A stretch of DNA of 64,000 bases from contig NC_134843.1 in NCBI RefSeq assembly GCF_965363235.1, positions 85,841,795-85,905,794 on the forward strand, written 5' to 3'. A program made the translations under genes and the position numbers. This DNA comes from Mytilus galloprovincialis (taxonomy: Eukaryota > Mollusca > Bivalvia > Mytilida > Mytilidae). Shown one piece after another: positions 8,380-61,930 of the stretch. The first letter of the stretch is position 1. Each line of letters begins with the position of its first letter. Below the pieces are notes generated by a model, which was not told the origin of the DNA, did no database searches, and saw only the letters and a program-made list of their open reading frames with translations.

Positions 8380-8660
8380 GCACAGAACCAGGACCGTTTT
8401 TCTTATCACCAGCACAGCGTCAGGACAATTCCGTTTAACGAACTTGCACGACTTTTGCAATATAATATTGTTGTAATATACTTTGCATGGTACTTATGAC
8501 GCATCAGAGAAAAATTAAGCAAGAAAACAGTCGTTTAATTGCCGTTCTGATACAATGTAAACAAACCCACCAGCACAGAATCAGGACCCACCAGCACCTG
8601 ACAGGACCAAATCACGAGCACAGAACGTTCTCTCGCAGGACAACCATACCCACCGTGTTT
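8380..8660 (+). repeat. Dispersed repeat C, second locus
   Basis: Contains 'cccaccagcacag' units at 8400-8415 and 8567-8620, then 'gttctctcgcaggacaac', which matches the inverted copy at 4940-5015. On the minus strand this block holds an AATAAA near 8655-8661, which could serve the peptide gene that ends at 8842. Confidence 0.55.
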
Positions 8661-8661
8661 A
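8655..8661 (-). promoter_or_regulatory. Possible polyadenylation signal for the peptide gene
   Basis: AATAAA on the minus strand, about 185 bases beyond the stop codon at 8842. It lies inside dispersed repeat C, so chance occurrence is possible. Confidence 0.3.
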
Positions 8662-8841
8662 TTTGGGTATGAATATGTCTTAATGCTCACACATGCACAG
8701 ATAAGTTGTCCTTTTTTATAGAAAAAAAGCTATATAATAAAATAAAAACAAATATACTCTTCGATGTTGCAGCAATATTCTATAAATCAGATGTATTACA
8801 CAAACAATCACAAATATATACAAGGAATACACAAATAATTG

Positions 8842-10167
8842 TTAGTTTTCACGTTTTCCATTCAGTCTAACATGGTAGCCTCGGGATCTGAGAAGTTGAA
8901 GCAAATATTGCCGAGATATTCTGTGCTGCGGGCGACTCCATTTCTTTTGAGGGAGAACCAGGTCACTTGGCATTGACATTTGAGGTTTGTTATGAATTTC
9001 TGCTTGTATCAGGGACAAAAGAAGCTCAAGATCAGGATTATTAGTCCTCAGCTGTACACTGTCAGCTTGTTCTTTACATGTTACCCCAAGACTCATATTC
9101 AACCTATGAAAAGAATTTAATTATTAATAAAATCCCACAACGTGCATTTAGGAAGAAATATTCATAGGAAATTGGATATAGGATACTAATTTGGTAACTT
9201 ATTCTCCGTCTATTGTGTTACATTTTAATGTTGCGTCGTTGTTCTCCTCTAATATTAAATGCGTTTCCCTCAGTTTTGGTTTGTTACCCCGATTTTGTTT
9301 TTTGTCCATAGATTTATGAATTTTGAACAGCGGTATACTACTGTTGCCTTTATTTACCACTACTGTTTTGTAAAACATATCATTTATGGGGAAAAAAGTT
9401 AAACATTTTGAATTCCAATGGTCACATTTACGTAATGAGGCCAAAAACTAGTCTGCACACAATTCATATGTAAAAATTAAAGGTAGAACTAATTCATCCC
9501 CTTCTACAAGAGATTGTATGTGAAGTCATTAAAACTTGAAGTATTTTAAAACAAGACTATATGTTGAAACCTATTGCAAACTATTGATGGCATTATTATA
9601 ACATTGCATGCATGTTTCATTACAATACGTCATTTTCAATGTCTAACATCCATCTCGCGTTATTATGAAATCCACTTTCATTTCAAAATGAAATGTAACT
9701 TTCATGATGACACTAGCTCTAACAATAAAGCACACAGGTAAATAAAAGGAAACTTGATGGAAATATTATTTTCATGGTCCTGGCAAAACAATGTAATTAT
9801 AAGTATTGAATGCTACTTTAAGCAATGATTTTACACCCCAATAAAAAAAACCCAGAAGAATTCAACTCTTAGATATTTACACACGTGGAGTGAAAAACTT
9901 AGTTTAAACAATTTTCAAAAATAATTATTTTTTTCATCTGCAAAGCACATGTTTTTATTAAACCTGTAACAACATTTGCAGGTTTTCATTGTAAAGTATT
10001 ATTCAAATGATATTTTTGTAACAATATAACGAGATCCATCATTTGGTTTCAAATATTGGTGTAGCATTCTTATCATCTGAAACCATCTAAATTATAATCA
10101 TAGGTATGGTAAATAATACTTACAAGACAATAACAAGAACTGAATAGAATATTCTAATTGTCTCCAT
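8842..10167 (-). CDS. Putative secreted neuropeptide or hormone precursor, two coding exons
   Basis: Join 10167-10124 and 9103-8842, giving 101 residues plus TAA. Exon 1 starts at an ATG and ends in TT followed by GTAAGT. Exon 2 follows a pyrimidine-rich 'ttcttttcatag' acceptor and opens with G, so the junction makes an in-frame Leu. The joined N-terminus is a signal peptide (METIRIFYSVLVIV, then LLNMSLGVTC, residues 1-24), although its halves lie 1 kb apart. Residues 25-67 are an acidic to neutral spacer. Residues 68-69 are KK; residues 70-96 form a basic segment (WSRPQH...YHVRLN) with a likely helix RQYLLQLLRSRGY. Residues 97-99 are GKR, the usual signal for C-terminal amidation after prohormone cleavage, followed only by EN. 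The 'ttttag' just before the ATG suggests an upstream 5' UTR exon. I do not recognise the peptide family; a weak RQYL resemblance to molluscan NPF/NPY is noted but not claimed. Confidence 0.68.
9200..9365 (-). repeat. Dispersed repeat B, inverted copy
   Basis: Reverse-strand match to 3979-4150, including the motif read as 'gaggagaacaacgacgca' and the 'cagtagtataccgctgttc' end. It lies in the intron of the minus-strand peptide gene. Confidence 0.65.
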
Positions 10168-10189
10168 TATTCTAAAAGGAAAATAATAT

Positions 10190-16930: not shown

Positions 16931-17593
16931 ACTACTTCAAATACTTAAAACAAGTTTTTTGTATTTATAGCTGGTTAATGATATTTCTTGAAGTATACAG
17001 CTAGTTACAAAATATTAACTAAAAAATGACTGCATGATTGATATATAATTTTGTATTGTGTACGTTGTGTGATCAGGAACATAGAGAAGGCTTACTATCA
17101 TGATTTAATTTTTTCTGTAACGGATACATATATGTGTCCATACAGGTGAATATACAGAACCAATGACAGTGGGCTTTTTCTTTTGACGTAAACGAAAAAA
17201 AAAGAAAGAAATTGTCAAACTTATCGGTAAATCTTAAGGGTAAATCATTTTTACAATTAAAAGAATTACACGTCTATATGTAGATGAAATTATGACCAAA
17301 CTATCAACTGTAAATGGCTGCGTTTCCAATTCAATCTGACATGGATGCCTAAGGATTTTAGAAGTCTGAGAAAGAATGGCTGGGAGAGCATCCTTCTAGA
17401 TGTGTTCCTCCTTGTTCTTGTTGGTGGTGCATATTCGTCCCAGGATACATGCCTTTCGAGGTCTTTGTATGGTTGTGATATTCTCCGACGAAGTAAGCCC
17501 TAGCTCGTTTTTGCTAGTGGTGGATCTCCGTCTCTGGATATGTGCCTTTTAGTGTCTTTAATTCAGAATTCATCATAAACTTAAATGGTGTGT

Positions 17594-18900
17594 AGGTTCT
17601 GTAAAAGAGGAACGAAAGATACCAAAGGGACAGTCAAACTCATAAATCCAAAACAACTGACAACGCCATGGCTGAAAACGAAAATGAAAAAGACAAACAA
17701 ACAACAGCAAACACGACACAACATAGAAAAACAAAGAATAAACAACACGAACCCCACTAAAAAAATAGGGGTGATCTCAGGTGCTCCGGAAGGGTAAGCA
17801 GAGCCTGCTCCACATGTGGCACCCGTGGTGTTGCTTATGTGATAACAAATTCGGTAAATAGTCTAATTCGGTAGGTCACATTCATGAAAGGGAAGGGGAT
17901 TGTAGTTACGACGTAAGGATCATGTCCGATATCATTTGTGAAAACGGTTATTTCATAACGGTCAACCAACTCGTGATGGCGTCCGTAAAATTTACGAAAG
18001 GATGATTTCAACTTCACCATTTGGAACTCTTGGTTTGATAGCTTCCTCGTGAGCAGCAACCCTCTATCAAGAAAATCATAATAGGAAATGCAAGCACGGA
18101 AATATCGTATCAATTGGGAGATATATACCCCGTACGCAGGTGCTGCTGGAATGTTGCTACTTAGAAATGGAAAGTTCACAATTGGAAAGCTGAAATCATC
18201 TCTTTTATCGTTATGTTTTCAACCGACCCTCAGTGTCAATTTCTAGATGTAAGTCAAGATATGAGACCGACTTAACTGTATCTGTAGTATCCTTTATCTC
18301 TAGCTCGATTGGATAGATGCGCTCCACATAGTCACCAAATTTTGAATTATTTAGTGACAGAACATCATCTATATAGCGAAAAGTGGAGTTAAAGGATATT
18401 GCTTACTTCTTATCTTTCTTCCTAAGAAGTTCCTGCATGAAGTCAGCCTCATAATGATAAAGAAACAAGTCGCCAAGTAGAGGGGCACAGTTTGTCCCCA
18501 TTGGAATGCCGACAGTCTGTTGAAAAACACGTCCTCCGAACGTAACAAATATGTTGTCAATCAAGAAATCAAGCATCTGGATAATATCAGTTTCAGAGAA
18601 TTTTTTGTTGGAATCAGAGTGATCCTTTACAAAGTAGGATTTATCCCTCCCTAAAACAAGATACTTGTATCTACGTTGGGCATTCTTTTTTACGAAGCAA
18701 AGCAATACCAACTCTTTCAATTTGTCTTTTAGTTTGGAATGTGGAATACAAGTATAAAGAGTAGAAAAGTCAAATGTTTTAATACTGTTACAAGATGAAA
18801 GAGAGTTAGATTGTATGTACTCTAAAAGATCTTTGGAATTTTTAAGTATCCACATCTGATTCACGTAATGGTTACTGCAGGAATATGGTTCACCCTGTGA
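17594..18900 (-). mobile_element. RT family 1 retroelement, 5'-truncated copy 1
   Basis: Minus-strand reverse transcriptase with Penelope-like features. Motifs in order: FDFSTLYTCIP (first catalytic Asp), VGIPMGTNCAPLLGDLF and, in the sister copy at 36933, FRYIDDVLS. A conserved C-terminal segment follows (NFPFLSSNIPAAPAYGVYIS, then YFRACISYYDFLDRG). No GIY-YIG endonuclease is seen. The tail (17594-17840) is the family's 3' UTR, ending at 'cctctttt' in every copy. The coding part is split over more than one frame, so this is a dead copy. Assignment to Penelope-like elements is tentative and rests on RYIDD and the LYT-IP context. Confidence 0.72.
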
Positions 18901-20109
18901 AAAAAATGAATTAATAATACATTTATATCTTTATGTTTAAAAACTTCTTCCATGGAGCTTGTCAAAGGCAAGCAAAACTCTACAGAGTTATTATTATTAT
19001 TATTTTGCTAATAATGCTTTGGTATTATATTCTGATTGTAGCATAAATTGTTCCTTTTAATGTTTCAGTCTGTTTATCATTTTCACATAATTAATTGGAA
19101 TTAAAATATCCTTGCTTTAAAACAAAACCACAATATCAAGAAATGTTCTAATTGCGTCATTACAACCGATGCCTATTTAAGATATTGCAAAAACAACTTT
19201 TTTTATTATCAAATGCACCGATATATCTCGGGTCTCTCCCAGCAAGTGCTTTGGGATGAAAATGCAGTTAAATTAAACCATAACCCAACTCACGCACAAA
19301 AAGGAATTTCAGATACCAATTTAAATACTGGTCAATACAATTAAAGGATTATTTGAAAGATGAATTTATGTTGTATTATTGGACAATACGAAATGATACA
19401 TCTATACTGCATACTGAATTTACAAACCTTCATTCCCACAATGACGTGTATTGCCACTTAAATCCAAAGAAACTCTTAAGAAGAATAATACATTAAATGA
19501 CAGCGATCAAAGTTGGTCGTTTTATTGATACTTTCATGTTGTATGTGTCATAGATATACCATGTAATCTGATATTTTCAGTTTAAAAAGTAAACATATAA
19601 CACTTTTAAAACTGAAACATAAGATGACAAATTTTACGATCACCACTTTTGATATAGGAAAATGTGTTTTTAATTTTGATTTGATTTCTACCTTTACTCA
19701 TTACCTTTAATAAACACTTACAACACAATGATCAGGATAGGCTGTAGCAACTTCATAAACATCATAAGGAAATAGAAAAATGATACCGATAAATTTGTTG
19801 TAAAATTCTAATACAAGTTTTCTATCATTTAATCATCTTATTTTTTAGGTTAAATGTAACGCATTCAAATAGAAATGTAAATCAGTGTGTGTCCCAAATC
19901 AAGGAGACCTTCAGAAAAAAAGTGAACTCCAATAACGGCTTTGAATTAGAAGAGCTAAATTTTGGAATGAAAAATGTAATGAGATAATTACTCTAGACTT
20001 ATTGGAAAGGATTTACTTGAATGTGGTGTAAAAGGACGATGGAATGGATACCATTTATAAACAATCTCCATTTAGATAGATATGCCACCTTAAGACTTCA
20101 ATGTATAAA

Positions 20110-24599: not shown

Positions 24600-25980
24600 C
24601 TATTCTACGTGAAGAAGATGGGAGGCTGCATCACCAAACTCTATTGTAGTTACTTCTTGGTTGCGGTGTCTAAGCTTAAGTTCGTCCAATCTGATGTTGA
24701 TTTCTACATACTTCTTCTTGGGGGCTGCTCTCTTCCCACCGGCTGCATACTGGATCATAGTCATGGCGTTGAATGCTTCCTCATGTTTCAGTAGTTTAAT
24801 CAGTTCAGAGATGTGCATGGGTGACATGTTTCTTTAGTTTGCTGTGCCATCCTTCTAGATGATTTGTTGTCCTTGGCCCTTGTGTTAGGTAGTGGTTCCA
24901 AAGATGACTATTCTGTTCAACCCAGTATGTTGTTACATAGTCTGTAAAGGCTGTGTAGTAAGTGTTGGTATCGATCTGGTCTATGTCTGTTAGGGCATTA
25001 AACCACACATCTTCAACCTCGGCAAAGGGTATAAGTGGAAGTACAGCAGCACGACGTACCAGTTGGTGAATATTGTCGTCATTCTTGTATGGAACCTGAA
25101 GACCTGTTTCTTGTGCTTTTCTCCAGATGCATTGCGTGTAGTGGAAGAAACAGCCTTTTGCGTTGATGCCAGGAAATATAGAGTATGCTGCATTTCGGAT
25201 GGCGACTTCATAATCCAGGAAGGTAGTATTCGGCTGAAGTTGTAGTTGGTGTTGGTGGCAGAGATCTTTAAGTAGAGTCAGGAACCTTGTATAGACAAGT
25301 TCACTCTTGGCTGGAAGTAAACTGTGTACGAGTGGGTACATTGCTCCGTCAACCATTGCGTGAAAAGTGTATAGTTGGAAGAATAGACTTGGATAGGTGT
25401 AAAATGTACAATCCCCATATATGATATCTGCAGCTGATAAGTGAGTTAGATTCTTTTGTGTACTGAAGATAAGCATACGCCCTTCTGTGTTATCGTCTGC
25501 TAGCAGGAATGGATCACCTTTGGTTGTACGTGTCCAAATGCCATCTATGTTGATTTGGTAAAACTGGAAAGTTCTTCTTGCGTTTGTTGTAATTGTGTTC
25601 TTGCAAGATGGAAACGTTGGAATGTTCTCTACAAGTTCTGGTGTGTCGTCGTGCCAGTCATCTGTTCTGAGTTTAACTAGTTCTTCCTCGTAGATTGTTG
25701 GAATTGGTGTCAGCTCATTTGTGCAGCGAACTTTCATTCTCTGGAGGACATCGTCTACTTTCAGCTGCATGTGGTCAGACCCATGGTTGTGGTTTGCTGA
25801 GACTTTGGTTGGTATGTTGTTCAAAGTATTGATGGTGGCAGGACAGTTTGCAGTTGAACACTTCCAGTAAGTTCTTATGCCCCTTTTGTTCTTTGCCTGG
25901 AACTTAAACCCACTGTGTACAAGGTTTAGGTTCCCGAGTCTGTTTGTAACAAACTTTACTTGTAGTTGTGCATTAGCCAT
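24600..25980 (-). CDS. MULE transposase with N-terminal FLYWCH zinc finger, one frameshift
   Basis: The reading frame starts at the ATG at 25980 (frame open further upstream). About residues 18-70 are a FLYWCH finger (F-KFQAKN, YWKCSTANCPATI, then HNH). The MULE catalytic core follows: the first Asp in IIYGDCTFYTYPSLFFQLYT, the second in TFLDYEVAIRNAA, the CFFHYTQCIWRKAQ segment, and a Glu in TTNHLEGWHSKLKKH. The frame stops after THAHL near 24805. The protein continues one frame over (ISELIKLLKHEEAF) to a stop at 24600. So the copy carries one frameshift near 24825 and is otherwise open for about 460 residues, which suggests fairly recent activity. It could be read as a host FLYWCH gene, but the flanking inverted repeats and 9-bp duplication argue for a transposon. 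Confidence 0.85.
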
Positions 25981-26296
25981 TGTCACTGAATAATGACTTG
26001 ACTGGGCAAGGACCACAATTTATATCAATTTGTAAGCTTGGAGCTCACAGAGCTTGGGGTTGGCATCTGAGTAAGTATTTGTCAGCTAAGTTCTTAGCTT
26101 GCAAAAATGATTCTGATTTTTTTTTAGCTTGGATAACTCAGTCAATTAAAGTTAATCAAATCTGATTGCTGATGCTTTGAAGTAAAGTTAACAGTTTTCA
26201 CCTATTATTTTATATCTTTGATTATTGGTCCAAGTAATTATATTTTAAGAGTATCTTTTTATTCTACATCTTAAATTATACTTGGTTATAATATCA

Positions 26297-26569: not shown

Positions 26570-27022
26570 GTGCATCTCTCAAGGTGAAATCGGATGCATG
26601 ACAAAAAAATATTTTTGTAGCTTAATCTATACAAGAGTTGAGGAAAAGTGTAACATATTGATTGATGTTGCATAAAATATGTTTGTAGCTACAACTACAT
26701 GAAGTTGGAATAAAAGTTTAACACATTTATAGATGTTCGATTAATTGTATGAATTTCTATAAATTAATTTGTATGATTTCAAGATAATTATGGTTTTGAT
26801 TTGTTTTTAAATCTTTTTTCGTCTCTCTCATTGAGTCCATCAGGTTCAAGAGTTCGTAACTGGTGCATCCAAAATCTCTCTCTTTTTTGTCTTCCTTGTG
26901 TATCCCAATTTTGATTTTTCTCAATGATTTGAAATGTGACGTTTTCAAAATACAACAAAATACCAAACGGATTGAATATTAAATTGACACCACAAACACC
27001 GGGTGTAAAGTCCTTCAGATTT

Positions 27023-29545
27023 ATGAAACGTTGGGACGAAACTTTATTCAATTGTTCTTTACGGCTTCTCCAACTTTTACTCTCCTTTTCTATCTATTCA
27101 TATAAACAAATCAACTCTGGAATAAATGAAATGCTTTCTAAACCACCAATGTCCATTACTAACGGAGACATGGATTTAATCAAGAAAAGACTATCTGATA
27201 TTGAAAGAATAGAAAGTCAAAATTACAAAAACAAGCAACAAAAGAAATTTACCAGAGATGATCTTAAACAGCAATTTTCAAATTTTGATATAAATAATAT
27301 TTTAAAAGAGAGTGATTTAAAACAACCAAGAAAAAGACGTTTTAAAAAACGGACACACCCCGCGGATAATAATTTAGTTGTTAATCTCTCGTCAACAGAA
27401 TTAACCAATTCAGAAGAAAAATTATTAAGTAGAGGTCTAAACTTCTGTCCTATACCAGCAAACATTAACAACCTACAATTGGAGACAGATGTGGATCAAT
27501 TTGCAAGACGTCTTCGCCTAAAAGAACACTTTAATAGGCAACACAAAAAAAACTTACAAGAAGCCGGAATGAATGATTTGGAATATGAGAGTGATAAAGA
27601 GGACAAGTACATCCCAAGATTTAAAAAGAAAAGCGAATGGAATCCACCAAGGAGTAAGAACGACAATTTAGAATCCTTTATATCATCTATTAAAACTGAA
27701 GTAAAATCATCAGTCAGTGGCAAACGTTTACGGAATCTCTCTGAACAAGAAAGCCAAGCCATTAATAATTTAAAAAGCCGTGATGATATTGTTATTAAAC
27801 AAGCAGACAAAGGAAGTGCAGTTGTAGTGATCAACAAAACCGACTACATTGAAGAAGGGAATCGTCAGCTGGCAAATACAAAATTTTACAAACATTTAGA
27901 AAGTGATCCTACAAAAGAAATAAGTAAACAAATTAATGAGGTCCTTTCAGATATGAACAGCAAAAAACACATAGATGACGACACGTACGACTATCTACGC
28001 CCTGATGAAACCTGCACAGCCGGTCGATTTTACTTGCTCCCAAAACTTCATAAAGAAGGGATTCCGGGAAGACCGATAGTATCTGCAAATGGCCATCCAA
28101 CCGAAAAAATATCTGAATTCGTGGATTACCATCTTAGACCACATGTTAGAACAATGCCATCCTACATTCAAGATACAACAGATTATTTGAAGAAAATGGA
28201 TTCATTAAATCCCTTACCAAACAACACAATTTTGGTATCGATGGATGTGTCTTCTTTATACACAAATATTCCCAAAAATGAAGGAATAGTCGCTTGTGAA
28301 CAAGTATGGAACAATCGTAAGGATAAACATCCCCCAACAGACTGTCTGGTTCAGTTGCTGAGACTAGTGCTGGAAAACAACAATTTTGTATTCAACGACC
28401 AGCACTACTTGCAGGTTGACGGTACCAGTATGGGAACCAAAATGGCACCTTCTTTTGCCAACATTTTCATGGGGAGTCTCGAAGAACGCATCCTTTCGAA
28501 TGTACCATACAAACCCTTGTCTTGGCTCCGTTATATTGATGACATCGACATCAAATGGAACGAAACTGCAGAACGTCTGCAAGAATTTCTCGATTTCTGT
28601 AACAACTTTCATCAATCGATAAAGTTCACATCTGAAGTTTCAAATGAGAAAATTGCGTTTCTCGACACCACCATAACTTTAGAAAACGGAGTCATGACAA
28701 CCGACCTTCACACCAAAAAAACTGATAAACACCAATTTCTCTCTCCGAAGAGTTGCCACCCGAAACACTGCTCCCGGAGCATTCCGTACAGCCAAGCCAT
28801 CAGGTTAAAACGGATTTGTTCATCGGAATCAAAATTTAACCATCGTTTGGGGCAACTCAGACAGCAACTTAAATCAAGAGGTTATAAGAACAAAAATATT
28901 TCAGAAGCTTTCGGTAAAGCAAAAGAAAAAGACCGAACAAACCTACTTGAATACAAAGAAAAGACGGCCCAGACAAATAAAATCCCGTTTGTTGTTAGCT
29001 TTCATCCTGACCTGACAAATCTTTCATCAATTGTCCACAAACACTGGCGTCTTATTGAAAATGATCCTTCCTTAAAAGAGATTTTTCCATCACCTCCCGT
29101 TATGGCTTACCGCAGACCCAAAAACCTCAAAGATATTTTAGTAACATCCAAAGTATCTAAACAGGAGATATCAACAATCGGAGGTTATACACCATGCGGA
29201 AGGGGCAATTGTAAGTGCTGCAGAGTCGCCACTATCGAAACCCAATTCGTCAGCACAGTCACAAAGAAAAAATACAACATATTCATAACATCAAATTGCA
29301 AAACGCAAAATTGCATTTATGTTCTAACTTGTGGAACTTGCAAAATACAATATGTTGGTGAAACAGAAACACCATTTAACATCCGACTAAATAACCATCG
29401 GTCATTTTATACAAAAGAAAGGAACTGCCCAATTACAAGACACCTTTTAAGAGCAGGACATGATTTTGAAAACGTCACATTTCAAATCATTGAGAAAAAT
29501 CAAAATTGGGATACACAAGGAAGACAAAAAAGAGAGAGATTTTGA
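27023..29545 (+). CDS. Penelope-like RT with C-terminal GIY-YIG endonuclease, uninterrupted
   Basis: 840 residues from the ATG at 27023, chosen because the frame upstream (open to 26936 without an ATG) lies in the inverted arm. RT motifs in order: IVIKQADKGSAVVVIN, RFYLLPKLHKEGIPGRPI, VSMDVSSLYTNIP (Asp), GTSMGTKMAPSFANIFMG, LRYIDDIDIKW (Asp-Asp) and IAFLDTTI. A Cys cluster (CGRGNCKCC) precedes a GIY-YIG domain with CIYVLTCGTCKIQYVGET and RLNNHRSFY. Both domains are as expected for endonuclease-bearing Penelope-like elements. The RT copies and pastes the element and the nuclease nicks the target. I see no internal stop, so it may be functional. Confidence 0.92.
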   Translation: MKRWDETLFNCSLRLLQLLLSFSIYSYKQINSGINEMLSKPPMSITNGDMDLIKKRLSDIERIESQNYKNKQQKKFTRDDLKQQFSNFDINNILKESDLKQPRKRRFKKRTHPADNNLVVNLSSTELTNSEEKLLSRGLNFCPIPANINNLQLETDVDQFARRLRLKEHFNRQHKKNLQEAGMNDLEYESDKEDKYIPRFKKKSEWNPPRSKNDNLESFISSIKTEVKSSVSGKRLRNLSEQESQAINNLKSRDDIVIKQADKGSAVVVINKTDYIEEGNRQLANTKFYKHLESDPTKEISKQINEVLSDMNSKKHIDDDTYDYLRPDETCTAGRFYLLPKLHKEGIPGRPIVSANGHPTEKISEFVDYHLRPHVRTMPSYIQDTTDYLKKMDSLNPLPNNTILVSMDVSSLYTNIPKNEGIVACEQVWNNRKDKHPPTDCLVQLLRLVLENNNFVFNDQHYLQVDGTSMGTKMAPSFANIFMGSLEERILSNVPYKPLSWLRYIDDIDIKWNETAERLQEFLDFCNNFHQSIKFTSEVSNEKIAFLDTTITLENGVMTTDLHTKKTDKHQFLSPKSCHPKHCSRSIPYSQAIRLKRICSSESKFNHRLGQLRQQLKSRGYKNKNISEAFGKAKEKDRTNLLEYKEKTAQTNKIPFVVSFHPDLTNLSSIVHKHWRLIENDPSLKEIFPSPPVMAYRRPKNLKDILVTSKVSKQEISTIGGYTPCGRGNCKCCRVATIETQFVSTVTKKKYNIFITSNCKTQNCIYVLTCGTCKIQYVGETETPFNIRLNNHRSFYTKERNCPITRHLLRAGHDFENVTFQIIEKNQNWDTQGRQKRERF

Positions 29546-36884: not shown

Positions 36885-37795
36885 CTGTGACTGTTCGGAG
36901 GACGTGTTTTTCAACAGACTGTCGGCATCCCAATGGGAACAAACTGTGCCCCTCTACTTGCCGACTTGTTTCTTTATTATTATGAGGCTGACTTCATACA
37001 GGAACTTCTTAGGAAGAAAGATAAGAAGTTAACAATATCCTTTAACTCTACTTTCCGCTATATAGATGACGTTCTTTCACTAAACAATTCAAAATTTGGT
37101 GACTATGTGGAACGCATCTATCCCATCGAATTGGAGATAAAGGATACTACAGATACAGTTAAGTCGGCTTCATATCTTGACTTACATCTAGAAATTGACA
37201 ATGAGGGTCGGTTGAAAACAAAACTTTACGACAAAAGAGATGATTTCAGCTTTCCAATTGTGAACTTTCCATTTTTAAGTAGCAACATTCCAGCAGCACC
37301 TGCATACGGGGTATATATCTCCCAATTGATACGATATTCCCGTGCTTGCGTTATCTATCATGATTTTCTTGATAGAGGGTTACTGCTCACAAGGAAGCTA
37401 TTAAACCAAGAGTTCCAAATGGTGAAGTTGAAATCATCCCTTCGTAAATTTTACGGACGCCATCACGAGTTGATTGACGTCGTAACTACAATCCCCTTCC
37501 CTTTCATGAATGTGACCTAGCGAATTAGACTATTTACCGGATTTGTAATCACATAAGCAACACGACGGGTGCCACATGTGGAGCAGGATCTGCTTACCCT
37601 TCCGGAGCACCTGAGATCACCCCTAGTTTTTGGTGGGGTTCGTGTTGTTTATTCTTTAGTTTTCTATGTTGTGTCATGTGTACTATTGTTTTTCTGTTTG
37701 TCTTTTTCATTTTTAGCCATGGCGTTGTCAGTTTGTTTTAGATTTATGAGTTTGACTGTCCCTTTGGTATCTTTCGTCCCTCTTTTCCATAATTG
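36885..37795 (+). mobile_element. RT family 1 retroelement, 5'-truncated copy 2
   Basis: Opens inside the RT domain (FQQTVGIPMGTNCAPLLADL) and reads on for 195 residues through FRYIDDVLSLNNSKF, SASYLDLHLEIDNEG and NFPFLSSNIPAAPAYGVYIS to a stop at 37520. The 3' UTR follows, with 'gtgccacatgtggagcag', 'cttccggagcacctgag' and 'gactgtccctttggtatc'. Being 5'-truncated with a constant 3' end, it looks like an incomplete reverse-transcription product. It is the best-preserved coding copy of this family here. Confidence 0.8.
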
Positions 37796-41475: not shown

Positions 41476-44400
41476 GAGTTTATTGATACTGTTTTCTTGA
41501 AGCAAAGAATAAAATGCCTTCAAAATATTTTTTTCATTTATTTTTTATATTTTTTGTTTATAGAACTTTCTATCTGAATTATATAACAAAAAATATAGGT
41601 GGCAATGAGAAACACCTTTTTTATTAAAAGATGTGTTTTTATTTTTTTTTTACGCCTACCTTTACTCATATTATCATTACACATACTGTTTAATAAACAC
41701 TTACAACACCATGACCAGCTCAGGAGGTGTTATCTTCATTAACATCATTGACCTAAAAGAAATAAATAAAAAAATCAATACCTACAAATTTATTGTAAAA
41801 TTCTAATACAAGCTTTTTATTTATCAATATAAGCTAATAGATAAATGAATAAACACATACCTTTTCCTAAAAAAAAAAGATGGGCAGTTATATTAAAGTT
41901 TAAATATGTTCACCGATGTCTTTCAAAAATTAGAGGGTGGATGCATGGGTATATTTTATTTCTTCAATGTTTAAAACAGAATAACATATAACAAATAATC
42001 CGCAAAACTGTTATGACATTGTCCTGGTTTATATATATATATATATATACATTGTTCGCCTACTACTGTATTTTATTTTCCTATCACGGATAAGTGATGC
42101 TCATTTAGATGATGCGTTGAATGTGTCGAAAATACAAATGGAATATTCTATGCAATAAAAACCTATTGAATATTTCCGTCGGATTTAACAAAAGATGCAA
42201 ACAAACATTTTGTATTTTCCACAGATATACTCTTAGATACAAACTATATATACAGAACATATGTTTACTTTATCTCAAAGACAACATATTCCTACTACCT
42301 AATTTCCATAGTACATGTATATAGTACAAACGCATCAAATAGAAATTAAACACTGGAATCAGTATGAGAGCTGTGAGCATTCAAAATATCTTAAAAGCCA
42401 TTAAGAAATAGACAAATAAATAAACTGACCTTTTCCAAAAACACGTTGGACACTAATAAATTCCAACTTTAAATATGCTCACCGATGTCATTTAATAATT
42501 AGCTACTGTAATCATCAGTAATGTCTTGCTATGTCATTGCTCTTCTTTCTAAAGTTCGATGTCGTCATCAGAAGGTTCACGTATATGCACTTACTAAGGT
42601 GTTTTTCTTAATACTTTTATATATAGGTAATCAATTTCTTGTTGATGAAACGTGATATTTGTTCTATAATAACTTATTGCATTACATATATACTTAGAAA
42701 CTGTAATTGTCTGGCAACAGTGGCAAACCACTCCTATTTCATATTTGATTTACTTATAACTTATAACTTATATGACTGCAGGTGCTGACCGATACCGTGG
42801 TAAAATAATTCATTTAAAAAAACCAGCAAAATGTAATAAACTTGTAACTCTCAATTGATTGTTTCATAAGACGTAATTAAAAAAAATGAATGCTCCTTTT
42901 TTCATATATGAATAAGGTTCTAAAAGCGTTGATCGTGCGAACATTTGTAGTATTAAGGGTTTCCTCTTTCGGACCAAGTCCGTAACTACAGTGAGGCAAA
43001 TGCCTCATGTTAAAAATAAAAAAAAATAAAAATAAGATGAAACAAATATTATCTTTTAATCAAACTGTTTTCACGACGAGTGTCTTGAAAGAATCATGTT
43101 CTGTTAATTTATGACGTCGCCCCTTCTTTTTCAGAATCCATGTTTCTCATTTTGGAAGTTTTCACTGTTGATGGTTGTGTAACGTTATGTGTCTTAATTA
43201 TTCCCAAGTTTGTCTGTGTGTTTTGAATGTTCATTCAATTCTTCACAGACTTTCGACTTTGGAAAGATCTAGGATAACGGTTGAACGTTCGTGTGGTTTG
43301 GCAATGTTGATTTCCACCGATGTCCATAAGACTTAATTATTCCTGAGGTTGTCTGTGTATTGTTACATTAATAAGGTTAACTTTTCTTTCATGTCTATAT
43401 GAATTATATTTTTAAACTAACAAACAAAGGAAATATAATTTATCTGTAAAAGCTGCGTTAATCGGACAAAACGGTATATCTCAGACCAAAATAAGCATTG
43501 ATAAGTGAGAACTGAATATTTTTCTTTTGAAGATTGAAAGTAGTGAAGGGGAGGGAGAGTCGATTTTTATTTTGTGTTTTCTATTATGTTAAAAACTTCT
43601 TTTAGATTGCAGGTAAATAGCATAAAATAAAGATCTGAAAAAATCGAATAGTGAGTGAACATCTAGGTATATATTTTTTTAATTACGACCTTATCAGATT
43701 GTATCAATTGGCATTTCTAATTGTTGTGAGTGTAAACAATATTTTATTTTAAAATAAATAACGTAAATATTACATTATGACAATCTTATTAGGATTTGAA
43801 AACAAGTGGATTTTCACTTTTACTAATTCCTCTCTCAAAATTGTTGTTGTCGTAAGGGTAATACTCTCCCTTCGAAATATAAAATATATTTTCTTTTAAT
43901 CTAACCATTAAACAAAAACAAAAACAACTTAAATAAAAGTAAACAATTCTTGGAAAATATCTTACGTCTACGCAATTAGCGGTCGAATGACACAAACCGT
44001 TTTTAATTGTATGCCCGTAAACAATTAAATAATTATAAAACAAGCCAACATACGATAAATGATCTGTCATTTTGTATGAACATTAATAACTTAAACATCA
44101 TATTGTTAAAGTAAGGTAAGAAAATTGTCACGTTTACAAATGATGTGATAAGATACCTAAAATAACCCAGCCACAAAACAAAAATAAAAATATATACTAT
44201 AAAGAAAAAAGAGACGTGGATATTTACAAACATGAGGGAAAAAGACAACTGCAGGTGTCTGTTTGTCACGTTTATTTACATATAATATATATTCTTCCAT
44301 TTGCGACTAGTGTAACGTTAATGTATTGTGTAATTCCTGATTCTATTTTGATGTTACAAAAAAGTACTTACAAGCGTGACACGAAGTACACGTTAAATTT

Positions 44401-58051: not shown

Positions 58052-61000
58052 ATGATTTGGAGTGGAACAGTTTTCTTAATCTCCATTTCACTTATAACGG
58101 TGGAGTCCTGCCAGCAAAATGGAAGTAAGTCAACATTATTTTACTTATTTTTACCATAGGTCGTGTAATTCTTCAACAGGAGCATTTGCCATGTAATAAA
58201 AAAAGTAAGATAACAAAAATACCGAACTCCGAGGACAATTAAAATCGGAAAACCCTTAATCAAATATAAAAAATCTAAAGCTCAAACTCATCAAACGAAT
58301 GGATAAAAATTGTCATATGCCAGATTTGGTTGGTACAGGCATTTTCTTATGTAGAAAACGGCGAAATAAACCTGGTTCTATAGCTAGCTAAAAGGTTGAT
58401 TTGATTGCATTATTGTCAACTTATAAAGGTGAACCAAGAAGAATATAACTGATGGACACTTTTATTCATGTCCTAGGCCTTAAATTAATAATATCATTTA
58501 TATTTTTTCACAAACAACAGCAACGGGATAAATTTGCATTTTTACAGGCTGGCGTTATCAAAGAATAGTGTTATTATCAAAATAAAAGCCGATATTGTTA
58601 AAAATACAAAAGCGATAAACAAACAAAAGATTTCACTTGTGTCATGTAAGCAAATATTCATGCAAAAGCTACCGACGACTGACAGTAATCATATATGAGT
58701 CTGAATTTCTGTCGTGCTACTTTTAATGTTTGAAACCAGCAATATGTCGTTTTCAGTCAGGATTAAAAACTAACAAAATTTTATTCAAATTTTTGTTCCT
58801 CATAAAGGTTTTCCAGTTCTGTGGCATTAAACAAAAATATATATTCAAAATATTTATATTGTGTGTAAACATAACGTTGAAAACCGCACACATATTTGAT
58901 GAATAATACTTGTTAAAATGTTTAGTTCTCCCTGTTTGGAAATTGATAATTTACTTCTGTTCAATACAATCTTGTGGTGTTATTTAAGTTGCATTGCATA
59001 GGTCTAAGAGTTTCTAAGCTATCAGGGTGGAATCGAATGCATTTTATATGTCATTTTTCCCAACTATCGCAACTGGACCAAGAATTGCAATTGAAAACGG
59101 CACAATGTATTTCAGAAACAATTTACTTTGTTCGACATAAACTATGACAATTTCAAAAAAGAATCATGATTATGTCCAGCCAATTACTTTCTCTGAAGTC
59201 ATTTATGATGAACACTTATTTTTTTTGTCTTCGAAAAACTCTCTCATTCAGTGTACAGATTATTCATAAATGCTTCACATGTTCTTTGTGTCAACATATT
59301 GAGGTCGTATCAATGTGTTCTCATGCTATTCTTTTTATTTCATATAGTAACCTGTGGGAGCGAATGGGTACAACAATTAGAGAATAACCAACAAGGCAAT
59401 GTAGTAACCGGTAGTAAAGAAACGCTTCGACAGGATATCTTGAGTGGTGCAAAAGTTCGGATCAGTTTTGGAAATTATTATGCAGATACCCAGTTTACGT
59501 ACATCCTAAATGATGAAGTGTGTGTACAGTCACTTTTTCATATCAGCAAGAATGGTTGGGATAAACATCAAACTAAGGCATATTGGTGGTTTCTCAACGT
59601 ATGTACTACTGGAAATGTACACATGTCTCGGTGGTTTGTCGGAAATCATACTCAACAGTCAACACCAGAAACAAAAACTAAATACAGTGTCAGATGGTTT
59701 ACAAGGTATATAAAGAAATAAATAGCTTTCTTATTACTTTTTAAAGTAGCGAGTGTGGAAAAACAGGTATATAGGTGGCACAGTAGTATTTGCATTCCAG
59801 AATTTAGGTTATTCTTTTGTGTACCCTACCTAAGTCAATGTATCTGAACAGTGTGCTTGAACATAAAATATAGTATCAACTGCACACACTTTCCCAAACT
59901 GAGGGATGAATCATGTGTAGAAAAATATGAAATAATTTTACAAACAGATGAAAATGAATTTTTAAGATTTTTTTTAATTGTGTATTCAATGCATGATAAA
60001 AGACTTAAAAGCACTAGTGGCCTTAAATTTTTGAAAATAGCAAAAAAAGTAAGCGGTCATGATACACATTTATATTTATTTCTGAATTGTCAAATGAAAG
60101 TACTTTAGTTAACTGTGAAAGTTATTTTTTTTAGCAGTGTTCGAAAGTGGTCAAAATTCTAAAAAGGCTATAATTATCCCTTATGGGCCAGGAAATACTA
60201 CCGTACATATATTATGACTCTCTTGTATTAAATTAAGGTCTGTTTCTTTTCATACAAAGCACTGATTCTTTTTTACGGATTTCACTATATCTTAAGTACT
60301 GTTTGGATCGAACAGCCCTGCAGCATATGTATTACTTTATGATCTTCGAATAGTCCTGTCTCAAGACATTAATTGTCGGAATGCGCTTCTGATGAAGGAA
60401 AGTTGATAACGGTAATGATATGATATTCTTCTGTGGCTTTGTCAAATGAAACTTCAATCTAAAAACATTACAGATGATAACATGTCCATCAATCTTTGAG
60501 GACATGTTTCATCAAGTTGAACGTCATAAAATCAAAAAATCGAATAAGGTAGAAGTTTGCATTGCTGATTATATAAATAGATGATGTGGTATTATTGCCA
60601 ATGAGATAACTGTTCACAAGAGACCATATGGCCATAATAGGTCACCGTATGGTCTTCAACAATGTGCTAGGCCCATATAATAAGTTTTTCTCAGAGTGCT
60701 TTGTTTGTTTGTTGTTTCTTTTTCATTTAACACCTCATTACTAGTATCTTATACTGAAATAATAATTGCCAAACCAATGTTCTCTCTATTTTCAGACAAT
60801 TAAGTTCAGAGTCAAATCCTCAAACTCCCATTTACTGCAACTCAGACAGTGGATCAGCAAGCTGTGGCAATATAACACATCTAACAAGAGCTGTTGCTAA
60901 CGGAGCAGAAATTCACGTTACGAATGTAAAAGGTAAACAAGCGGCAGCTCTTGAATTTTCAAATATAGCATATAATAAAGCTGAAACGAAAGTAGCTGGA

Positions 61001-61930
61001 ACACATTTGTGGCAAGTAAGTCAGTCAATTGTCGGAAATCATATAGAATTCCAGCAGAATGCGTATTGGTTTTTTACTCTATGGTCAACCGATGGAACAC
61101 GCGATTTTTCAAGATGGTCTGTTGGTGAACATACTGACCGAGGACATTCTAATGGCAAAGCATCGATGAAATGGTTTGCTGATACATGTTGGACCTTAGC
61201 ATATGAACATGACAAAGACGGACAAGTCATCGATGGTTCCCTGGAGTTCTTACGCTCAGCTATTTTAGTTGGCAAACGGGTGAGGCTAGTTTACTCAGAT
61301 TATACGTACGGAATTGAAGCTGACCAGTTAGTGGTAAGAAACGGTCATGTAACTGCGCAAGTTCTAGGCCACGTATCGAAAGCAAATTTACAGAAATTTC
61401 AGGACAACGCACACTGGTATTGGCAAAATGTTGCGACGACCGGAAATGTAGAAACCATCCGCTACAATGTAGGTTCTCACACTAATCGTGGCAGTTCCAA
61501 TGAGAGACAGGCAACAAAGTGGTTCATTGACTCCAGGCCTTGGCAACACGCGTATTCCAACTCAGAAACAGGTGTTACTACACATGGATCTAAGGCGTCG
61601 TTGATACAGGGAGTTAAAGATGGAAAGATGCTCAGATTCACTATTAAATCTACTACATGTAATCAACTAAACAATGATTATATTGCTGTCTTTAATGCTG
61701 ATAATGCAGACTTAAGTCCGGATGGAAATGATCTTGCTGCACAGCATATTCGGTCGATTGGGTTGACAAAAGATGGGTTATATAATGTAGCATTTGGATC
61801 TAAACCCTATTGGAATTTTATGATCGCTACGACAGCTGGTAAATTAGACGAAACAAGATGGACTGTTGGTGAACACCAGAGTCAGGGACACGTCAATTCC
61901 AGTTCCGCTATTGATTGGTTTGTTAGTTAA
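58052..61930 (+). CDS. Secreted protein of four tandem divergent domains, three exons, function unknown
   Basis: Join 58052-58124, 59348-59705 and 60796-61930, giving 521 residues. Donors are GTAAGT and GTATAT and acceptors 'atatag' and 'tttcag'; both junctions keep frame (Ile25, Arg144). Residues 1-20 are a signal peptide (IWSGTVFLISISLITVESC). Four repeats follow: 25-144, 145-273, 274-389 and 390-521. Each tends to run: W...Y near the start, GS..(F)L...V..GK.VR, a central .V.AQ.L.H.SK, AYW....TTGN....RW.VG.HT.RG.S, and a closing WF. Repeat 1 is exactly exon 2. Single Cys residues sit at repeat starts (CGSEW, CWTLA), and sequons occur at GNHT, GNIT and NSS. No membrane segment follows the signal. 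I do not recognise the domain; extracellular, shell-matrix, mucus or defence roles are all possible and unsupported. Stop is at 61928-61930. Confidence 0.85.
58200..58390 (+). repeat. Dispersed repeat E, copy in intron 1
   Basis: 'taccgaactccgaggacaat', 'aaagctcaaactcatcaaac' and 'ttggtacaggcattttc' match 13505-13690. It lies in intron 1 of the four-domain gene. Confidence 0.65.
60578..60680 (+). repeat. Dispersed repeat D, copy in intron 2
   Basis: 'gatgtggtattattgccaat', 'gagataactgttcacaagag' and 'gtcaccgtatggtcttcaac' match the start of the copy at 7693. It lies in intron 2 of the four-domain gene. Confidence 0.7.

Follow-up and report, generated by a model that had tools for sequence, protein, structure and literature searches.

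A tandem family of genes predicted to encode secreted, cysteine-free cationic peptides in Mytilus galloprovincialis

Introduction

Precursors of antimicrobial peptides (AMPs) of the magainin/cecropin type consist of a signal peptide, an acidic propeptide, a basic cleavage site and a cationic, helix-prone peptide, often followed by a Gly for amidation. Molluscan amidated prohormones (ELH/DH44, PDF/cerebrin, DH31) combine a signal peptide and dibasic sites with a helix-prone peptide of 18-40 residues and a C-terminal Gly with basic residues. According to a 2025 paper, the only linear AMPs so far known from Mytilus are the myticalins, and bivalves as a whole lack any described AMP of the amphipathic helical type (PMC12294457). 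The same paper describes myticalin genes as arranged in tandem, with many pseudogenes, and as being made of a 5′ UTR exon, a signal exon and an effector exon (PMC12294457); their mature peptide is presented as hypervariable in another report (PMC5577615).

A gene with two coding exons, hereafter called main, was studied in a window of 64,000 nucleotides (the whole stretch of DNA that was analysed, G000:C6:85841795-85905794), together with searches of the 1.38-Gb genome. Its architecture, relatives and substitution pattern are described in the following, and the possible functions of its product are then weighed. By layout, the myticalins are the nearest analogue of the family to which main belongs.

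Gene structure and predicted precursor

The two coding exons of main (table 1), as joined, give a precursor of 101 codons, METIRIFYSVLVIVLLNMSLGVTCKEQADSVQLRTNNPDLELLLSLIQAEIHNKPQMSMPSDLVLPQKKWSRPQHRISRQYLLQLLRSRGYHVRLNGKREN-stop. A first-pass annotation made from the letters of the window had proposed this two-exon structure, and its exons, splice sites and phase proved exact, as did its account of the 101-residue join, with KK, the 27-residue segment W70-N96 and the GKR-EN-stop end. The 44-nt coding exon also stands as an exon, but it is probably the second and not, as had been proposed, the first, because a T-rich tract and AG precede the ATG, ending 4 to 10 bases 5′ of it in seven of the eight loci of the family (4 bases in main), so that an acceptor is kept there in all but the decayed locus D2. 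This is most simply read as a sign of a non-coding first exon further upstream, which would bring each gene to three exons. On the 3′ side, AATAAA follows the last coding codon of main after 182 bases, and AATAAA or ATTAAA is found at 184 bases in L002, one of its close copies.

In the precursor, the mature segment with its flanks reads KKW...RISRQYLLQLLRSRGYHVRLN-GKR. The signal peptide, judged by eye, has a hydrophobic core and V/A-T-S/C before the cut, and inspection of the sequence revealed no internal repeats. These parts make up the general layout of a prohormone, i.e. a signal peptide, a peptide flanked by dibasic sites and an amidation Gly, and the prediction is well supported that the precursor is secreted and dibasically processed to release a basic peptide of 27 residues, which is probably amidated. 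The AlphaFold2 model of the effector exon alone, whose mean pLDDT of 53.5 is low, placed one helix in the spacer (residues 23-38) and one in the mature part (64-73).

Table 1. Features of the main gene and of loci related to it (positions are those of the window unless a contig is given).
Feature	Position	Strand	Basis or remark
Main coding exon 1 (signal peptide), 44 nt, with ...GTCTT at its end and then GTAAGT	10124..10167	-	length and donor equal in 7/8 loci; 41 nt in D3
Probable acceptor site (TTTTCCTTTTAG), then 4 nt of 5′ UTR up to the ATG	10168..10183	-	suggested by acceptor conservation
Main intron, GTAAGT...TTTTCATAG, phase-2 GT-AG, 1,020 bases	9104..10123	-	splice sites and join
Interspersed 143-bp repeat within main intron, outside gene proper	9214..9356	.	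genome DNA search
Main coding exon 2 (effector), covering the signal-peptide end, the acidic spacer, KK, the 27-mer and GKR-EN-stop	8842..9103	-	262 nt; paralogues, dN/dS
Main predicted mature peptide WSRPQHRISRQYLLQLLRSRGYHVRLN, net charge +6, amidation Gly next	8860..8940	-	identical in L002
Main polyadenylation signal AATAAA, ~180 bases past coding end	8658..8663	-	near-equal distance in L002
D1 precursor locus (L026)	G000:C6:85805704-85806066	-	internal duplication of ~27 residues
D2 decayed effector exon (...MLSQPFFLRLLKSLGIHVRLNWKR...)	17293..17568	-	76% identical to D1; interrupted by two stops in frame
D2 signal-peptide exon (MMFMKLLQPILIIV), which retains its donor but has lost the acceptor 5′ of the ATG	19722..19765	-	profile scan, DNA similarity to D1
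D4 orphan signal-peptide exon (MMLMKITPPELVMV)	41705..41748	-	81% DNA identity to D1 over 187 bases

The repeat within the main intron recurs on many contigs, accounting at 80-98% identity for 39 of the 44 genomic places listed (4343 first-look candidates, 40 of them scored), as a SINE- or MITE-like element presumably would. Other parts of the window hold open frames of a different kind. A 404-codon frame at 24805-26019 (minus strand) has FLYWCH zinc finger and MULE transposase domains, and an 870-codon frame at 26933-29545 (plus strand) encodes a reverse transcriptase, with a sub-cutoff match to GIY-YIG at the C-terminus, a layout which we take to be that of a Penelope-like element. A sub-cutoff reverse transcriptase match is also found in the frame at 36891-37520 (plus strand), to which a frame at 18403-18930 (minus strand) is similar by eye. 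At 59212-61930 (plus strand), frames of 169 and 390 codons show, by eye, a repeated unit (...W...GNV...RW.VG.HT...KWF...) and gave no Pfam match.

The tandem family on contig C6

The family comprises eight loci over ~127 kb of contig C6, all on the minus strand. Three of the close copies (main, L002 and L003) are intact, while L008 has an internal stop; the distant loci are D1 (intact), D2 (decayed), D4 (an orphan signal exon) and D3 (a probable relative), so that three of the eight (L008, D2 and D4) are broken or lack one exon. In a DNA search of the whole genome the effector exon was met three more times, always on the contig and strand of main, and with the protein of this exon as the query the five matches at E <= 10 were main, L002 (88%), L003 (70%), L008 (69%) and D1 (E 4.62).

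Main, L002, L003 and L008 all retain the 44-nt signal exon, the GTAAGT donor and the phase. The conservation of the reading frame, which the first-pass annotation had proposed to look for in related mussels, is borne out by the paralogues, with exons, splice sites and phase kept in three further loci. Intron length is 860 bases in L002, 1656 in L003, 4466 in L008, about 884 in D1 and 1684 in D3. L002 reads ...KKWSRPQHRISRQYLLQLLRSRGYHVRLNGKR-stop, its mature peptide being the same as that of main, and both have GKR. In L003, whose mature peptide would be a 28-mer, the end is ...KKWSRRPQSRISRQYLLQLLRSRGYNVNLN-stop and GKR is absent, and the stop codon of L008 falls within the mature segment. 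Overall, the amidation Gly is present in two of the seven loci having an effector exon. What follows the mature part is also variable (EN in main, nothing in L002 and L003, NHLQLLLWS in D1).

The distant loci were reached by other routes. A profile of the signal exon, built from four exons, indicated three more minus-strand loci, namely D4 (score 12.1), D2 (7.7) and D1 (1.5), the best plus-strand background being 3.8. The signal exon of D1, below background by this measure, rests on the DNA similarity of its region to D2 (69% identity over 829 bases) and D4 (table 1) and on its kept splice sites. D1 encodes an intact, longer precursor ending in TKRNSSRRMISRPFFLRLLKSLGIHVRLTWKRNHLQLLLWS; its internal repeat has 12 identities in 27 positions, a level reached by none of 500 shuffles, and the helix-prone core is absent after the first unit. 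As a genome-wide query, D1 gave five matches, i.e. itself, D2, main, L002 and a weak match on C3 with two stops (E 1.04). No effector exon of D4 was found by DNA comparison and a core-motif scan of 184 kb. Over these 184 kb the core motif, in a loose form, matched 10 times; seven of these matches, each on the minus strand, belong to the family, and the remaining three lie near stops. An additional 50 kb of flank yielded no further member, with two chance-level tblastn matches (E 0.51 and 0.97) and one occurrence of the motif, among stops.

D3 lies 60 kb beyond main and encodes 75 residues on the same two-exon plan, with KR-WGRSYGYLYKLLRKNGFQVKNKFSL. In tblastn within the 184 kb the two loci matched at E 0.047 (main as query) and 0.012 (D3 as query), and in Smith-Waterman comparison none of 20000 shuffles scored as high as the D3 and main peptides. 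The likeness of D3 to the D1 peptide is weak (4.7% of shuffles reach the score), a 4-row HMM of family members did not list D3 at E <= 10, and D3 as a genome-wide query matched nothing besides itself. Taken together, these comparisons make D3 a probable member of the family.

The charge pattern is shared across the family. The net charge of the mature part is +6 in main and L002, L003, D3 and D1 if cut after KR (+4 if D1 is cut after RR), that of the spacer is -3 in main, -4 in L002, -3 in L003, -1 in D1 and -4 in D3, and Cys is absent from all five mature strings computed. The absence of cysteine, the net positive charge and the acidic pro-part are traits of linear cationic AMPs. For five strings, each taken at three window sizes, the hydrophobic moment (muH 0.39-0.74) was in no case above that of composition-matched shuffles (15 tests, p 0.06-0.53), and amphipathicity gave no proof of AMP nature.

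Selection on the mature peptide

Between main and L002 the effector exon shows 12 synonymous and 9 non-synonymous changes (dN/dS 0.19; Fisher p = 0.0004 on rounded counts), of which the mature region contains three synonymous and no non-synonymous ones, while the introns differ by 23% over the first 180 bases (158 aligned) and by 18% over the last 60. At 20% divergence, the probability that 68.8 non-synonymous sites remain without any change by chance is 2e-7. In the other pairs, dN/dS of the pro part and of the mature part is 0.51 and 0.17 for main and L003, 0.82 and 0.17 for L002 and L003, and 1.08 and 0.22 for L002 and L008, respectively, and the non-synonymous contrast between the two parts has p = 0.016 (main-L002) and 0.028 (main-L003). 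The mature segment is the best-conserved part of the precursor. The youngest pair, L003 and L008, shows no constraint (dN/dS 1.11 overall), as expected because one of its members is broken. The substitution pattern therefore indicates that the frame is real and that selection acts mainly on the mature peptide. Main is more than a product of chance, because L002, L003 and L008 retain both exons, the splice sites and the phase, with substitutions of the coding type between the intact copies, and, as judged from these sequences, it is a real protein-coding gene and a member of a tandem family.

Relation to known peptide families

The first-pass annotation could name no family for the mature peptide, and the searches agree with it, since no match was found in Pfam or the PDB, nor were exact strings found in the main texts of papers. 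At E <= 10 no Pfam family was returned for the main, L002, L003 and D1 precursors, and kinship with orexin, NPB/NPW, NMU or ELH was considered as far as Pfam reaches; the D3 precursor gave weak sub-cutoff matches to HTH_58 and Chlorosome_CsmC and nothing over cut-off. Nothing beyond chance level came from the PDB, which was searched by sequence and with a profile of five rows (best E 0.52 and 1.1).

A resemblance to NPF/NPY had also been noted, on account of an RQYL motif and the position of the amidation site, with GKR close behind, but it is coincidental. Indeed, the genome has its own NPF-type exon elsewhere, being the sole match over cut-off to Hormone_3 (PF00159), at C2:64488338-64488433 (E 2.4e-8), where the sequence reads ...LRRYLKELNDFYAIVGRPR and the open frame ends; NPF genes usually have an intron at this point. 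Main, in contrast, has no PF00159 match, ends in VRLN without the RXRF/RXRY terminus and lacks an intron before GKR, its intron being differently placed. NPF/NPY identity was rejected on these grounds, and a divergent gene of this type is the least probable of all the readings considered.

The myticalins are alike in more respects. They share with the C6 family a Cys-free cationic mature peptide, a signal peptide and dibasic processing, an amidation Gly in some members, tandem arrays that include pseudogenes, and the succession of 5′ UTR exon (probable in the present case), signal exon and effector exon (PMC5577615, PMC12294457). However, the acidic part is an N-terminal spacer in the C6 family and a C-terminal extension in myticalins, the intron is of phase 2 (main, L002, L003, L008, D1 and D3) and not of phase 1, the mature peptide is conserved instead of hypervariable, and it is rich in Leu and Arg, has a helix-prone core and lacks the PRY repeats seen in the myticalin that was described first. 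On account of intron phase and precursor order, with no anionic C-terminal extension, the C6 genes were not counted among the myticalins.

In more general terms, the order of parts is also that of magainin/cecropin-type precursors, likened here from their general description, although the hydrophobic moment of the C6 peptides is unexceptional for their composition. With the molluscan amidated prohormones the family has in common the signal peptide, the dibasic site, the helix-prone peptide and the C-terminal Gly with basic residues, and it differs from them in having no Pfam match at E <= 10, in forming a multicopy array and in an amidation site that is not fixed.

Another group of mussel peptide genes was met in the course of the searches. 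Myticin-prepro (PF10690) has 19 matches in the genome, 17 of them over cut-off, and none in 14 control genomes, which suggests a mussel of the Mytilus kind, and three myticin-like groups with intact and stop-bearing copies lie at C10:51838130-51883736, C10:43908985-44112956 and C1:94607997-94641584; this clustering was counted in favour of a defence role for the C6 array.

Possible functions of the C6 peptides

A family of secreted, cationic host-defence peptides of the mussel, antimicrobial or immunomodulatory, is the reading favoured here over that of a hormone, and it is given about an even chance of being correct. It is weighed in this way because the array has three of eight loci broken or incomplete, the amidation site is loose, the charge remains similar despite divergence and the spacer is acidic (net -1 to -4); indeed, the array with its broken members, the Gly in only two of seven loci and the +6 charge make defence at least as good a fit as a hormone. 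The clustering of all eight loci on one strand within ~127 kb and the failure of Pfam to return a hormone family at E <= 10 point the same way, as do the parallels with the myticalin genes, likewise in tandem with many pseudogenes and similar in their order of exons. The exact splice sites of the two coding exons and the lack of non-synonymous change between main and L002 in the mature region were also entered on this side. Against it stand the conserved mature segment, the reverse of the hypervariable myticalins, the low AlphaFold2 confidence and a hydrophobic moment not above that of shuffles. The core common to main and D1, ISR..(Y/F).L.LL(R/K)S.G.HVRL, also counts against defence, as it would fit recognition by one particular partner, for instance a receptor. 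On the favoured reading, the gene would be transcribed with a putative non-coding first exon, the signal-peptide exon and the effector exon; once the signal peptide is removed, the acidic spacer (net -3) may mask the basic segment until, by known processing rules, a convertase of the furin/PC type cleaves after KK, and a cut at KR followed by carboxypeptidase and PAM action would leave a 27-residue W...N-amide with charge +6 and one short helix. Such a peptide would act on microbial membranes or surfaces, and the family would have diversified through birth-and-death duplication.

The first-pass annotation had described the product as an amidated hormone. The layout of a prohormone (signal, spacer, KK, GKR) stands, but the identity as a hormone is not established, given the tandem array, its broken members and the loss of the Gly in most loci. 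An amidated peptide hormone, neuropeptide or pheromone, in which the 27-mer amide, along with a non-amidated version from L003, would be the ligand of a specific receptor, probably of the GPCR class, with the tandem copies as dosage or paralogue variants, is a serious if lesser possibility, weighed as such because the mature segment is the best-conserved one, the opposite of myticalins. The identity of the mature region in main and L002, with introns that differ by 18-23%, the GKR kept in both and the peptide core that main and D1 have in common, with diverged spacers, speak for it as well as the layout does. The Gly in only two of seven effector-exon loci and the three damaged or incomplete loci speak against it, together with the blank Pfam result for main, L002, L003 and D1 (sub-cutoff, non-hormone matches only for D3) and the finding of nothing alike in passages of three papers on molluscan neuropeptides (PMC8398477, PMC6425005, PMC5996578). 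That the family is secreted, basic, confined to one locus and tandemly duplicated would also suit a byssal, shell-matrix, mucus or gamete peptide whose basic segment has polyanions, and not a receptor or a microbe, as its binding partner; dibasic release and an amidation site are not easily accounted for in a structural protein, and the absence of repeats from the main precursor (by inspection) adds to making such a product improbable. Chance open frames or a dead locus, as the shortness of the exons and the damage to three other loci of the array might suggest, are very improbable in view of separate copies that have conserved their splice sites, their frame and the mature peptide, and of the unchanged non-synonymous sites.

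Concluding remarks

Tentatively, and on the doubtful side, the C6 array may be the first bivalve family of helix-forming, C-terminally amidated antimicrobial peptides, unrelated to myticalins, in which the core I-S-R-x-Y-L-x-x-L-L-R-S-x-G-x-H-V-R-L would be kept for a specific target and amidated and non-amidated versions would come from neighbouring genes. Cationic peptides without Cys, encoded at one locus by a family that has expanded in tandem and is under selection, would represent either this missing class or a hitherto unrecognised peptide-signalling family.
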